Assembly (NCBI RefSeq): GCF_900109455.1
Contig: NZ_FOAG01000012.1
Location: 1 to 64,000, forward strand
Direction: 5' to 3'
DNA from: Roseovarius azorensis
GTDB taxonomy: Bacteria; Pseudomonadota; Alphaproteobacteria; Rhodobacterales; Rhodobacteraceae
DNA: 64,000 nucleotides
Position numbers and translations under genes: made by a program. Below are positions 28,249 through 56,599 of this stretch, one piece after another (the first letter of the stretch is position 1; each line of letters opens with the position of its first letter). The notes beneath the pieces are model-generated. The model saw only the letters and a list, made by a program, of their open reading frames with translations. It had not been told where the DNA came from and did not search any database.

Positions 28249-32492
<4,244 letters not shown>

Positions 32493-32519
32493 GCGAAAAG
32501 TCATTGTTTGTTCTTAAAT

Positions 32520-32534
32520 GTTCTTAAAAAGTTC
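32520..32534. promoter_or_regulatory. LexA (SOS) box, alphaproteobacterial type
   Basis: GTTC-N7-GTTC at 32520-32534 is an exact match to the alphaproteobacterial LexA operator. A further GTTC at 32510-32513 with N6 spacing lies just upstream. The box sits 41 bases before the ATG of the small membrane-protein gene and 28 bases after the recG stop, in an AT-rich patch suited to a promoter. Confidence 0.8.
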
Positions 32535-32574
32535 TTTACTTTGTTAATGAAAAATGAGAACAAAAAGGCAACAC

Positions 32575-32721
32575 ATGGCTTTCGAGAGGATACGCCCGAT
32601 GTTGCACCAGATCACCGCCGCCGCCCGGCGCGCTCAGGATACGATTGTCGGTGATGCGATCGGCGCGCTCGCGCTGTTGGTCACGCTGGTTGGCGCGCTT
32701 TATCTGCCCGGCCTTGTCTGA
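32575..32721 (+). CDS. SOS-controlled small single-helix membrane protein
   Basis: The ORF encodes 48 residues (MAFERIRPMLHQITAAARRA then a helix). The first half is basic and amphipathic (R, H, RR), and the C-terminal half is one hydrophobic helix (about residues 29-48, GDAIGALALLVTLVGALYLP). The internal ATG at 32599 has GAGAGGA 8 bases upstream and gives a 40-residue form, the better ribosome-binding site. A LexA box precedes the gene and a terminator lies 155 bases after it. This fits an SOS-induced inner-membrane peptide. Caulobacter SidA (29 residues) and DidA are SOS or damage-induced division inhibitors of similar size; no sequence likeness is claimed. Confidence 0.7.
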   Translation: MAFERIRPMLHQITAAARRAQDTIVGDAIGALALLVTLVGALYLPGLV

Positions 32722-32876
32722 CATCTGCTGTTCCTGCCTGGCGGGTCCGCCCCTGTCGGCTTGACGATTCCACTGTCCCAAGCGGGGATCGCCAAGACTG
32801 CCTGTCCAAGCGTTTCGGGGTTTACCTCATTCCTCCCGATGATCGCGACAGGGTGCCGGATCCAGCCCGCCTGCCG

Positions 32877-32908
32877 CCGCCGCCCGACCGGGTGCGCGGC
32901 GGTTTTTT
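32877..32908 (+). terminator. Rho-independent terminator downstream of the SOS small gene
   Basis: CCGCCGC (32877-32883) pairs with GCGGCGG (32896-32902), with a CCG/GGG inner pairing, then six T at 32903-32908 on the plus strand. The stretch 32722-32876 holds no convincing gene; an open frame there lacks an ATG. Confidence 0.8.
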
Positions 32909-32920
32909 CATCAGGGGTGG

Positions 32921-33376
32921 TCAGGCGCAGGAGGTCCGGGCGCAGGCCTCTTCCATCGCCTCGACCGTCGCTTCGAGCGTCAGCAGGATCGACGCATGAC
33001 GGTTCTTGTAATCGCGCGCGGGCCGCAGCACTTCCAGCCCGTCAAACGGGGCGGGCGGGGTCGGGCCGTCGGATTTGAGCATGTCGCGCAGCGCGTCGCG
33101 CGCGGCGCGCACCTGCGGCAGATCACAGCCGATGATGCCCGCGCCAACCACGCTTGCCGCCGCCTGCCCCAGAGCACAGGCCTTGACCTCGGCGGCATAG
33201 TCGGTGATCCGCCCGTCCGCGCAGGTTATATCCACCGTCACCGTAGAGCCGCAGAGCGGCGCGCGGCGCTTGACGGTGGCATCGGGCGCGGCCAACCGCC
33301 CATGATGCGGGATATCGGCGGCCAGTTCCAGAATACGCGCCGAATAGAGCTTGATCAGGTCGGTTTCGCCACTCAT
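32921..33376 (-). CDS. Iron-sulfur cluster scaffold protein (IscU/NifU-like)
   Basis: The 151-residue protein has the NifU N-terminal-domain layout with cysteines in RRAPLCGSTVTVDI, VKACALGQAAASV and near the C-terminus (EEACARTSCA). IscU-type scaffolds assemble [2Fe-2S] clusters for transfer. The second cysteine motif matches the SufU-type KACALGQA pattern. The ATG at 33376 has AAAGGG about 7 bases upstream; the longer frame to 33577 overlaps the divergent hisI gene. It is divergent from hisI by 67 bases. Confidence 0.82.
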   Translation of the reverse strand: MSGETDLIKLYSARILELAADIPHHGRLAAPDATVKRRAPLCGSTVTVDITCADGRITDYAAEVKACALGQAAASVVGAGIIGCDLPQVRAARDALRDMLKSDGPTPPAPFDGLEVLRPARDYKNRHASILLTLEATVEAMEEACARTSCA

Positions 33377-33443
33377 GGCTTTCCCTTTCGTCTGTTGCCC
33401 CATAAATAGGCCCACAACGCGCAGATGCAAAAGGTTTTCCGCC

Positions 33444-33812
33444 ATGACATTCGATCCGGCGACACTGAAATATGACGCGGCGGGGTTGATCCCTGCGATC
33501 GCCCAGGACGCGGCCAGCGGCGAGGTGCTGATGATGGCCTGGATGAACGCGGATGCGGTGGCGCGCACGCTGGACACCGGGCGCGTGACCTACTGGAGCA
33601 GGTCGCGGTCGGCATTCTGGATCAAGGGCGAAACCTCGGGGCATGTGCAGGATCTCATTGAGATGCGGGTGGACTGCGACCGCGACTGCCTGCTCGTGCT
33701 CGTGCGCCAGACCGGGCCTGCCTGTCACACCAACCGGCGGTCGTGTTTCTACACGGCTGTGCGCGACGCGCAGGAGACCGAGATCATGGCGCCAATGGCG
33801 GCAGGGGAATGA
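33444..33812 (+). CDS. hisI: Phosphoribosyl-AMP cyclohydrolase
   Basis: HisI opens the purine ring of PR-AMP in the third step of histidine synthesis. The 122-residue zinc enzyme has MMAWMNADAV, YWSRSRSAFWIKGETSGH, VDCDRDCLLVLV with metal-ligand cysteines, and the C-terminal PACHTNRRSCFYTAV. The length is that of a stand-alone HisI without the HisE domain. The ATG at 33444 gives the family-typical N-terminus, MTFDPATLKYDAAGLIPAI. It is transcribed alone here, convergent with gluQ. Confidence 0.95.
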   Translation: MTFDPATLKYDAAGLIPAIAQDAASGEVLMMAWMNADAVARTLDTGRVTYWSRSRSAFWIKGETSGHVQDLIEMRVDCDRDCLLVLVRQTGPACHTNRRSCFYTAVRDAQETEIMAPMAAGE

Positions 33813-48512: not shown

Positions 48513-48702
48513 GCCCGCCTAGTAGAACGCGGGCCTGCCCTGCGCAAGAGAAAGCCGCGCGGGGGCGGCGCATGTCGCTTTTCCCCCGCAATCGCCGGAA
48601 TCCTTGCCTGCCGCGGCTGACCAAGCAGGTATGAGGGGGAAAACACCCGTCGCAAGCCGGGTGACTTGGCAGTCGCAATCGACCACAACAGAGGATTCCC
48701 CC

Positions 48703-50250
48703 ATGTCAGAAGCAGAAGCGCGCAGCAGGCGGGTCCGGGGTGGCGGCGGGGCAGTGCGCCGCGCCGAACGCACCGCCGTCAGCATCGAGACCGCGCGCTA
48801 TATCGAGCGCAACATCCCCAATTTCGAAGTGCTGACCGAAGAGGCGCTGGAAATCATCGAGACCAATGCCGAAACGATCCTCGAAGAGGTCGGGGTGAAT
48901 TTCGTGCAGAACCCGGCGGCGCTCGACCGCTGGCGCGCGGCAGGCGCCGATGTCGAGGGCGAGCGCGTGCGCATCCCGCGCGGCCTTGCGCGCAAGCTCT
49001 GCGCCACCGCACCCTCGCGGATCGTTCAGCACGCCCGCAACCCCGAACGGACCGTCGAAATCGGCGGCAAATCCCTTGTGCTGGCCCCGGTCTACGGCCC
49101 GCCCTTCGTGCGCGACATGGAAGGCGGACGGCGCTACGCGACGATGGAGGATTTCCGCAATTTCGTGCGGCTCGGCTACATGTCGAAATGGCTGCACCAT
49201 TCCGGCGGCACGGTCTGCGAGCCGACCGACATTCCGGTGAACAAGCGCCATCTCGACATGCTGCACGCCCATATGACGCTCTCGGACAAGCCGTTCATGG
49301 GTTCCGTCACCGAACCCAGCCGCGCGCAGGACAGCGTGGATATGTGCAATATCCTGTTCGGCGCGGATTTCGTGCAGCAGAACACGGTGATGACCAGCCT
49401 CATCAACGTCAACTCGCCGATGACCTTCGACGATGTGATGATGGGCTCGCTCGAGGTATATGCCGCCAACAACCAGGCCTGTATCCTGTCGCCCTTCATC
49501 GTCGGCGGCGCGATGGCGCCGGTCAGCGTGGCCGGCACGCTGACGCAGGTGCTGGCCGAGGTGCTGGCGGGCATCGCCTACAGCCAGTTGGTGCGCCCCG
49601 GCGCGCCGATGATCTTTGGCGCCTTCGTCACCTCGATCGACATGAATTCCGGCGCGCCTACCTTCGGCACGCCAGAGGCCGCGCATATCACCTATGGCGC
49701 TGGTCAGCTGGCGCGGCGCATGGGATTGCCCTATCGCTCGTCGGGTTCGTTCAACGGCTCGAAACTGCCCGATGCGCAGGCCGCCTATGAAACCGCCAAC
49801 AGCCTCAATGTCGGGCTTCTGGCGGGGGTCAATTTCATGCTGCATTCCTGTGGCTGGCTGGAGGGCGGGCTGGTGTCCTCGTTCGAGAAATTCGTGATGG
49901 ATGCCGACCAGCTGGGCACGCTGCATCATCTGGCGCGTGGCGTCGAGATCGACACCAACGCCCAGGCCATGGATGCGATCCGCGAGGTGGGTCCGGGCGG
50001 GCATTACCTGGGCTGCGCGCATACCCAGGCGAATTTCAAGACCGCCTTCTGGCGATCGGATCTGTTTGACTACAAACCGTTCGAGACATGGTCCGAGGAT
50101 GGTGCGCGCGACACGATGATGCTGGCCAATGCACGGGTCAGGAAACTGCTGAACGATTACCGGCAGCCCGCGCTCGACCCCGGCATCGCCGAGGCGCTGA
50201 CCGCCTATGTGGCACGGCGCAAGTCAGAGATGCCCGACGCCTTCAGCTAA
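48703..50250 (+). CDS. MttB-family (trimethylamine methyltransferase-like) protein, non-pyrrolysine
   Basis: The 515-residue protein matches the MttB superfamily: FEVLTEEALEIIETNAETILEEVGV near the start, VRDMEGGRRYATMEDFRNFVRL, HSGGTVCEPTDIP and FGTPEAAHITYGAGQLARRMGLPYRSSGSFNGSK. True MttB has a pyrrolysine (in-frame TAG) in its barrel; here the frame has none, so it is a quaternary-amine or related methyltransferase-like protein. Such enzymes normally pass methyl to a corrinoid protein, but no corrinoid partner gene is nearby. GAGGA 8 bases before the ATG at 48703 marks the start. Confidence 0.85.
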   Translation: MSEAEARSRRVRGGGGAVRRAERTAVSIETARYIERNIPNFEVLTEEALEIIETNAETILEEVGVNFVQNPAALDRWRAAGADVEGERVRIPRGLARKLCATAPSRIVQHARNPERTVEIGGKSLVLAPVYGPPFVRDMEGGRRYATMEDFRNFVRLGYMSKWLHHSGGTVCEPTDIPVNKRHLDMLHAHMTLSDKPFMGSVTEPSRAQDSVDMCNILFGADFVQQNTVMTSLINVNSPMTFDDVMMGSLEVYAANNQACILSPFIVGGAMAPVSVAGTLTQVLAEVLAGIAYSQLVRPGAPMIFGAFVTSIDMNSGAPTFGTPEAAHITYGAGQLARRMGLPYRSSGSFNGSKLPDAQAAYETANSLNVGLLAGVNFMLHSCGWLEGGLVSSFEKFVMDADQLGTLHHLARGVEIDTNAQAMDAIREVGPGGHYLGCAHTQANFKTAFWRSDLFDYKPFETWSEDGARDTMMLANARVRKLLNDYRQPALDPGIAEALTAYVARRKSEMPDAFS

Positions 50251-54982: not shown

Positions 54983-56599
54983 ATGATGAAACCGGCAATC
55001 TCCCGCCGCGAGTTTGGCCCGCTTCTGGCAGGCGCCGCTCTTTTCGTGACAGGCGTTCTCGGCGCAGCACCCGCTGCCGCGCAAAGCACCGCCTTTCGTC
55101 AGGCGGTCGCCGAGGCGGCGGCAAGCGACCGGGACATCGCCGAATTCTACCGCGCCAACGGCTATCGCGCGATCTGGACCGGCGAAGGTGCCGGCGACGC
55201 GGCCCGTCGTCAGGCCCTGATCCGCGCGCTGTCGCAGGCCGATGCGCACGGGCTGCCCGTCGCGCGCTATGATCTTGGCGGGCTGATGGCGCGGATGGGC
55301 GATGCGCGCTCGATGCGCGATCTGGGCCTGATCGAGGTGGAACTGAGCCGGACCTATCTGCAATATGCCCGCGACCTGCAATCGGGGATCCTGATCCCCT
55401 CGCAGATCGACGAGGGCATCAAGCGCGAGGTGTCCTATCGGGACCGCACGGCCTACCTCATTGACATGAAAGAAAAGAGCCCGCGCGACGTGCTGCGCGC
55501 GTTGCCACCGCAAAGCCAGGAATACGCCCGGCTGATGAAGGAAAAGCTGCACCTTGAACACCTGATCGCGCAGGGCGGCTGGGGGCCCGCGGTGCCCGCC
55601 GACGTGCTCAAGCCCGGGCAGGAAAGTGGCGCGGTGATCGCGCTGCGCGATCGGTTGATCGCCATGGGATATCTCGACCGCAGCGCCAGCCGCAGCTATG
55701 ACGCGCGGCTGCAACAGGCGGTGCAGGCGTTTCAGGCCGATCACGGGCTGGAACCCGACGGCGTGGCCGGAGCCAGCACGCTGGCCGCGCTCAACATCCC
55801 GGCCAGCGAACGCCTGAAATCGGTGATTGTGGCGATGGAACGTGAACGCTGGCTGAACGGCGACCGCGGTGCGCGCCATATCCTGGTCAACCTCACCGAT
55901 TTCAGCGCGCGCATCCTGGACAATGACATCGTCACCTTCCGCACGCGGGCGGTCGTCGGGATGAATGCCAGCGGTCGCCGCAGTCCGGAATTTTCCGACG
56001 CGATGGAATACATGGTCATCAATCCGACCTGGCACGTCCCGCGCTCGATCGCCGTTCAGGAATATCTGCCGCAGATGCAGGCCAATCCCAACGCGGTCTC
56101 GCATCTGCGCCTCTACGACAGCCGCGGCCGCGAGGTCAGCCGGGGCGCGGTCAATTTCGGGGCCTATAACGCGCGCACATTTCCCTTTGCGATCAAGCAG
56201 CCGCCGTCGAATTCCAATGCGCTCGGACTGGTCAAGTTCATGTTTCCGAACAAGTACAACATCTACCTGCACGACACCCCGCATAAATCGCTTTTCGACC
56301 GGGAAAAGCGCGATTTCAGCCACGGCTGCATCCGTCTGCAACAGCCGTTTGAATTCGCCTACGAACTGCTGTCCAGACAGGAAAGCGACCCGATGGGCTA
56401 TTTCCATTCGGTGCTTGGCACGGGGCGCGAAACCTATGTGAACCTCAAGGCGCATGTGCCGGTGCATATCATCTATCGCACCGCCTTTACCCTGGCGCAG
56501 GGCCGCACGCAGTATCGCGGCGACGTCTACGGGCGTGACGCAAGGATCTGGGAGGCGCTCGACAAGGCGGGGGTTTCGCTGACCGCGGTTCAGGGCTAA
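54983..56599 (+). CDS. L,D-transpeptidase, YcbB/LdtD-like
   Basis: The 538-residue protein has a Tat-like signal (SRREFGPLLAGAALFVTGVLGAAPAAA), a PG-binding-1 domain (VIALRDRLIAMGYL...LQQAVQAFQADHGLEPDGVAG, about residues 210-270) and a YkuD catalytic domain ending with FSHGCIRLQ (catalytic Cys). It makes 3-3 peptidoglycan cross-links in the periplasm. Two adjacent ATGs (54983, 54986) are possible starts. The divergent DUF882 gene encodes a likely cleaving partner. Confidence 0.92.
   Translation: MMKPAISRREFGPLLAGAALFVTGVLGAAPAAAQSTAFRQAVAEAAASDRDIAEFYRANGYRAIWTGEGAGDAARRQALIRALSQADAHGLPVARYDLGGLMARMGDARSMRDLGLIEVELSRTYLQYARDLQSGILIPSQIDEGIKREVSYRDRTAYLIDMKEKSPRDVLRALPPQSQEYARLMKEKLHLEHLIAQGGWGPAVPADVLKPGQESGAVIALRDRLIAMGYLDRSASRSYDARLQQAVQAFQADHGLEPDGVAGASTLAALNIPASERLKSVIVAMERERWLNGDRGARHILVNLTDFSARILDNDIVTFRTRAVVGMNASGRRSPEFSDAMEYMVINPTWHVPRSIAVQEYLPQMQANPNAVSHLRLYDSRGREVSRGAVNFGAYNARTFPFAIKQPPSNSNALGLVKFMFPNKYNIYLHDTPHKSLFDREKRDFSHGCIRLQQPFEFAYELLSRQESDPMGYFHSVLGTGRETYVNLKAHVPVHIIYRTAFTLAQGRTQYRGDVYGRDARIWEALDKAGVSLTAVQG

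Follow-up and report, generated by a model that had tools for sequence, protein, structure and literature searches.

The window analysed here, a stretch of 64,000 nucleotides from Roseovarius azorensis, contains a recG gene on the plus strand (30402..32492), with Pfam matches to DEAD, Helicase_C, the RecG wedge and RecG domain 3. Downstream of it, in the same orientation, lies a LexA operator array, GTTC-N6-GTTC-N7-GTTC (32510..32534), with half-sites at 32510, 32520 and 32531, the last two of which form an exact GTTC-N7-GTTC (32520-32534). The last GTTC is adjoined by TTTACt (32535..32540), a tentative -35 box that corresponds to a conserved TTtaCa in the alignment of 147 loci, and is followed by a conserved TGAGAAC...CAAC element (32555..32572) enclosing the mirror half-box GAAC-N7-CAAC (32558-32572). 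A Shine-Dalgarno site, GAGAGG (32584..32589), precedes a 40-codon ORF with its stop codon (32599..32721), MLHQITAAARRAQDTIVGDAIGALALLVTLVGALYLPGLV, which, judging from its profile, dN/dS and AlphaFold2 model, encodes a single-helix membrane peptide. All these features are on the plus strand, as is a terminator-like hairpin followed by six T (32873..32908), while an ORF without Pfam match (32921-33577) is located on the strand opposite to the peptide gene. Elsewhere, the window carries an MttB-family trimethylamine methyltransferase gene (PF06253) at 48604-50247 and a single tRNA gene, tRNA-Ser (cga), at 1984-2073 on the minus strand.

The preliminary description had assigned to this locus a product of 40-48 residues, with a good ribosome-binding site for the 40-residue form. 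In 150 loci selected for the peptide (30 from Roseovarius and 120 others), an ATG is present near the position equivalent to 32599 in 149 cases, and a strong Shine-Dalgarno core in 141, both counts having been obtained with a start-picking rule that favours ATG and Shine-Dalgarno. The start at 32599 is thereby favoured and its ribosome-binding site upheld, but the 48-codon start was not kept: for the longer starts (48 and 55 codons), only 51 of 136 loci keep the ATG within (A/G)TGAGAAC in frame and 31 have it open, which is about the rate of in-frame extension expected by chance. The same description placed a terminator downstream. The segment 32873-32903 folds as a GC-rich hairpin and is followed by six T, but 13 of 200 shuffles of the stretch fold equally well, and a terminator scan of this region of the window reported none; a terminator-like site was found within 300 nt downstream in 146 of the 150 loci by a simple rule applied without a shuffled control. 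The position right after recG, in turn, is general: 147 of the 150 loci have a RecG motif ahead of the peptide, at a median gap of 110 nt, and in 140 it lies within 200 nt of the peptide start. recG is the only fixed neighbour measured. The three loci without a recG match in the stretch examined (L085, L121 and L157) have kept the exact LexA box.

The counts of the bare motif were set aside as evidence for the operator, being too weak: the window contains two copies of GTTC-N7-GTTC versus 1.30 expected, with two or more in 39 of 100 shuffles, and the whole genome contains 112 copies versus 76 for the reversed control pattern. The second exact copy in the window, at 55844-55858 on the minus strand, lies within an L,D-transpeptidase gene (54983-56596) and was taken as a chance occurrence. 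The significance of the operator derives instead from its conservation at peptide loci. An exact GTTC-N7-GTTC is found within 200 nt upstream in 147 of the 150 loci, whereas 100 dinucleotide shuffles of the same loci yielded a mean of 1.27 loci with a box and a maximum of 5. The array with a third GTTC, which had been noticed in the window, is present in 127 of 150. LexA itself was found in the own genome and in 25 of the 25 genomes tested, including 20 in which the peptide profile gave no match, so that a conserved promoter box and the repressor characteristic of a LexA regulon occur together. The operator class is also right for the host, as judged from sequence, since the genome's own lexA carries GAACATGCGTAGAAC behind TTGACA, a layout repeated in five relatives, and its recA carries GAACAAGAGGCGAAC about 50 nt ahead of the probable ATG.

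The TGAGAAC...CAAC element at 32555-32572 did not figure in the preliminary description. Across loci, GAAC-N7-[CG]AAC is present in 139 of 150, ten of these being full GAAC-N7-GAAC, and of the 144 loci in which the element could be located, 130 have a distance of exactly 27 nt between the last GTTC and GAAC. It may double as -10 region and mirror LexA half-box, in a core promoter whose spacing permits more than one candidate -10. The DNA of the control region is highly conserved in the alignment of 147 loci.

The association between operator and peptide also holds in the reverse direction. An operator-only pattern, run over about 85,000 species genomes, identified at least 118 stretches; among the matches listed, the peptide lies within 420 nt in 116; of the other two, L242 is a contig end and L193, a Muribaculaceae contig, looks like a chance match. 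Among the same listed matches, recG is found upstream in 111 of 118, and five of the seven without it are near the end of the stretch. It should be kept in mind that this operator-selected set overlaps the peptide-selected set in some genomes. A shorter operator pattern, applied to 40 genomes with weak or no profile matches, was found in 22 of them, in one copy each and always at this locus, with 0 matches in the control.

The reach of the peptide depended on the sensitivity of the query. With the window peptide as a single sequence, matches were obtained in 34 of 60 relatives, namely its own genome, 33 of 35 genomes of the same genus, and none of 24 from other families. An initial profile found the peptide in 327 of 394 Rhodobacteraceae genomes, and a broader profile found it in 355 of the order's 390 complete genomes, representing 135 of 139 genera; the peptide is thus near-universal in the family, usually in a single copy. 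A class-wide profile search yielded matches in five of 289 genomes. Besides the own genome, these are three others from its family and a doubtful match outside it (G798, E 0.0065), which has an internal stop, lacks both a RecG motif and an operator upstream, and was set aside. When 20 of the 35 profile-negative genomes were examined at recG, 19 turned out to have an exact GTTC-N7-GTTC together with a single-helix ORF of 31-45 residues containing D-x-x-G, and 17 of these 19 also have a Shine-Dalgarno core, so that the profile misses appear mostly to reflect sequence divergence. The sole genome of the 20 with neither operator nor single-helix ORF in the stretch after recG is G547 (L333). As a control, 21 recG loci were taken from other alphaproteobacterial families, 20 of which were readable; the stretch after recG contains the operator in none of the 20, and a hydrophobic ORF, lacking both operator and Shine-Dalgarno core, in one. 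Conservation of the peptide after recG in other Rhodobacterales, and of the LexA box along with it, was one of the points on which the preliminary description had staked its proposal, and neither of them is missing from related genomes when judged by sequence.

Within the 150 loci the peptide is 32-45 residues long, with exactly 40 residues in 115, and the 19 further loci extend the range to 31-45. The median dN/dS is 0.19 over 561 pairs, 99% of which fall below 0.5, indicating that the ORF behaves as a protein under purifying selection. Among the 115 forty-residue forms, D19, G22 and L34 are found in all, P37 in 114 and L26 in 111, and a charged residue occurs within positions 20-38 in only one; the invariant residues are kept in diverged genera. 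Hydropathy supports one membrane helix in 149 of the 150 loci, and AlphaFold2 yields one helix spanning residues 2-39 (mean pLDDT 92.9), in agreement with the single membrane helix originally proposed. The basic amphipathic half that was proposed along with it is moderate in strength, the net charge across residues 1-15 averaging +1.29 among the 180 distinct 40-residue forms, and it is largely missing in the 31-residue forms. These lack most of the N-terminal half and were seen in 6 of 10 genomes examined from one genus-level group (g48); the Paracoccus-like loci with this form are L332, L335-L339 and L215. The group is probably Paracoccus, since Paracoccus saliphilus (L215) carries the 31-residue form. 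It follows from such short forms that the core of the peptide consists of the helix, carrying D-x-x-G and in most cases L-P.

Conservation along residues 2-39 has a periodicity that peaks at 100 degrees, as in a helix (p 0.005), although the signal of a helical face is weaker in sub-ranges (p 0.049 for residues 15-38, 0.18 for 18-38 and 0.36 for 2-18). The conserved stripe on the helix is therefore suggestive of one contact face, but is not proof of it. Taken together, the gene, its operator, their joint conservation, the purifying selection and the predicted single helix, all obtained by sequence analysis, make it close to certain that we are dealing with LexA-type control of a protein under selection.

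The window peptide has no match in Pfam or NCBIfam, and 33 family members gave weak matches only, to EccD (0.0081, one member) and YgaH (0.055, two members). PHROGs returned only matches at 0.18 and 0.21, and none were obtained in PADLOC, PDB sequences, Rfam, or phage and plasmid records. No description of the peptide, and no SOS division inhibitor for Rhodobacteraceae, was found in the literature searched, a partial selection that includes PMC4211646, PMC6473078, PMC6395792, PMC6363796 and PMC13396833 and leaves room for an earlier mention; the word recG is absent from the main text of the Dinoroseobacter LexA-site paper (PMC6473078). We rate the peptide as a new lineage-wide family with a familiar SOS logic.

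Several small proteins made in response to DNA damage invite comparison. One of them, SulA, is soluble and far larger than 40 residues. It inhibits FtsZ polymerisation (PMC4211646), and the present peptide, a 40-residue membrane helix without a Pfam match, does not fit that description. The same source describes SidA of Caulobacter crescentus as a 29-residue inner-membrane SOS inhibitor that acts on FtsW (PMC4211646). Both SidA and the Rhodobacteraceae peptide are tiny, and both are LexA-controlled and located in the inner membrane, by prediction in the latter case; at the level of sequence, the peptide shares with SidA the combination of very small size, a single membrane helix and LexA control. 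They differ in that division inhibition via FtsW is known for SidA, whereas the role of the Rhodobacteraceae peptide is a candidate one and the likeness is by description, and in that the Rhodobacteraceae gene sits behind recG and spans the whole family. Also compared by description, DidA of C. crescentus is likewise a small protein made after DNA damage with one predicted transmembrane helix, but it has 71 residues, is induced by DriD independently of SOS, and acts through FtsN (PMC4211646). YneA, ChiZ and SosA are small membrane proteins, induced by DNA damage, with an action on late division; YneA and ChiZ contain a LysM domain, whereas the Rhodobacteraceae peptide has nothing after the helix. 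The membrane helix of YneA binds FtsW TM7, and the same was predicted for SidA with low confidence, according to a 2026 study (PMC13396833).

Because of the precedents of SidA (FtsW), DidA (FtsN) and the YneA helix (FtsW TM7), we favour division arrest as the function: it is somewhat probable that the locus is a one-gene SOS unit of Rhodobacteraceae, whose peptide inhibits division via the FtsW/FtsI/FtsN complex, and such a role is plausible from its regulation, size and topology. We infer a sequence of events that leads from LexA binding and induction, through membrane insertion in a given topology, to contact with a partner and arrest of division. LexA would keep the promoter shut by binding across it, at the GTTC array and perhaps also at the mirror half-box. 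DNA damage would activate RecA, leading to self-cleavage of LexA and expression of a short mRNA, the 31-45-residue product of which would enter the inner membrane as a single helix, with its basic end probably inside. The strongly conserved stripe formed by T15, D19, G22, L26, L30, L34 and P37 probably packs on a membrane helix of the partner, the likeliest candidate being the septal wall complex FtsW/FtsI/FtsN, which would be kept inactive until repair is finished. The peptide would then be the Rhodobacteraceae functional counterpart of Caulobacter SidA. Against division arrest speaks the behaviour of the YneA helix, which on its own localises and binds FtsW yet does not block division, as reported in PMC13396833. 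We also count against it the weaker helical-face signal in sub-ranges, the loss of the N-terminal half in 31-residue forms, the genome without operator or ORF (G547), and the very existence of SOS-induced single-helix toxins.

TisB of Escherichia coli is such a toxin, an SOS-controlled single-helix peptide of the inner membrane with an antisense RNA. DinQ of the same species is likewise described as a toxic SOS-controlled single-helix inner-membrane peptide with an antisense RNA. They provide the main rival to division inhibition, in which the peptide would insert, disturb the membrane potential and cause damaged cells to go dormant; regulation, size and single-helix build are the same, and the modest predicted exposure of the Shine-Dalgarno site (36 of 141 loci with an unpaired probability of 0.5 or more, and no comparison genes) would allow for control by the leader. 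We nevertheless regard a toxin as unlikely, given the near-universal fixed locus under purifying selection, the conserved Asp, Gly and Pro, and the near-absence of charge from positions 20-38. TisB and DinQ have antisense RNAs; a limited search of the peptide locus for such an RNA revealed neither an Rfam match (32300-33100) nor a promoter-like site in a sigma-70 scan.

The conserved helix face would suit any membrane partner, and the SOS-induced helix might instead regulate a different membrane target; examples would be sensor kinases, proteases, respiratory complexes and the release of gene transfer agents. In Rhodobacter capsulatus, a connection of LexA with CckA and with gene transfer agents has been stated (PMC6473078 and PMC6363796), but no neighbour points in that direction, recG being the only fixed one measured, and we find this possibility doubtful as well. 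A reading in which the ORF is incidental, and what is conserved is a regulatory RNA or the leader of a downstream gene, would agree with the high conservation of the control-region DNA but is very improbable in view of the low dN/dS, the residues that are invariant even in diverged genera, the lack of an Rfam match and the terminator-like sites that follow in most loci, albeit scored without a control.

Returning to division arrest, the peptide may be Rhodobacteraceae's own brake on division after DNA damage. This large family of marine and soil bacteria, some of them laboratory models, possesses a near-universal candidate under a tight LexA-type operator, at almost the same location in most of the genomes examined. 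As a toxin, it would be unusually conserved; if it blocks division, it would show that very little protein is needed to stop the septal wall machinery. It is possible, though just short of probable in our estimation, that Rhodobacteraceae gained a near-universal SOS checkpoint consisting of a helix only, in which case the 31-residue form would imply that a helix with Asp, Gly and Pro can lock the septal synthase without an outer domain.
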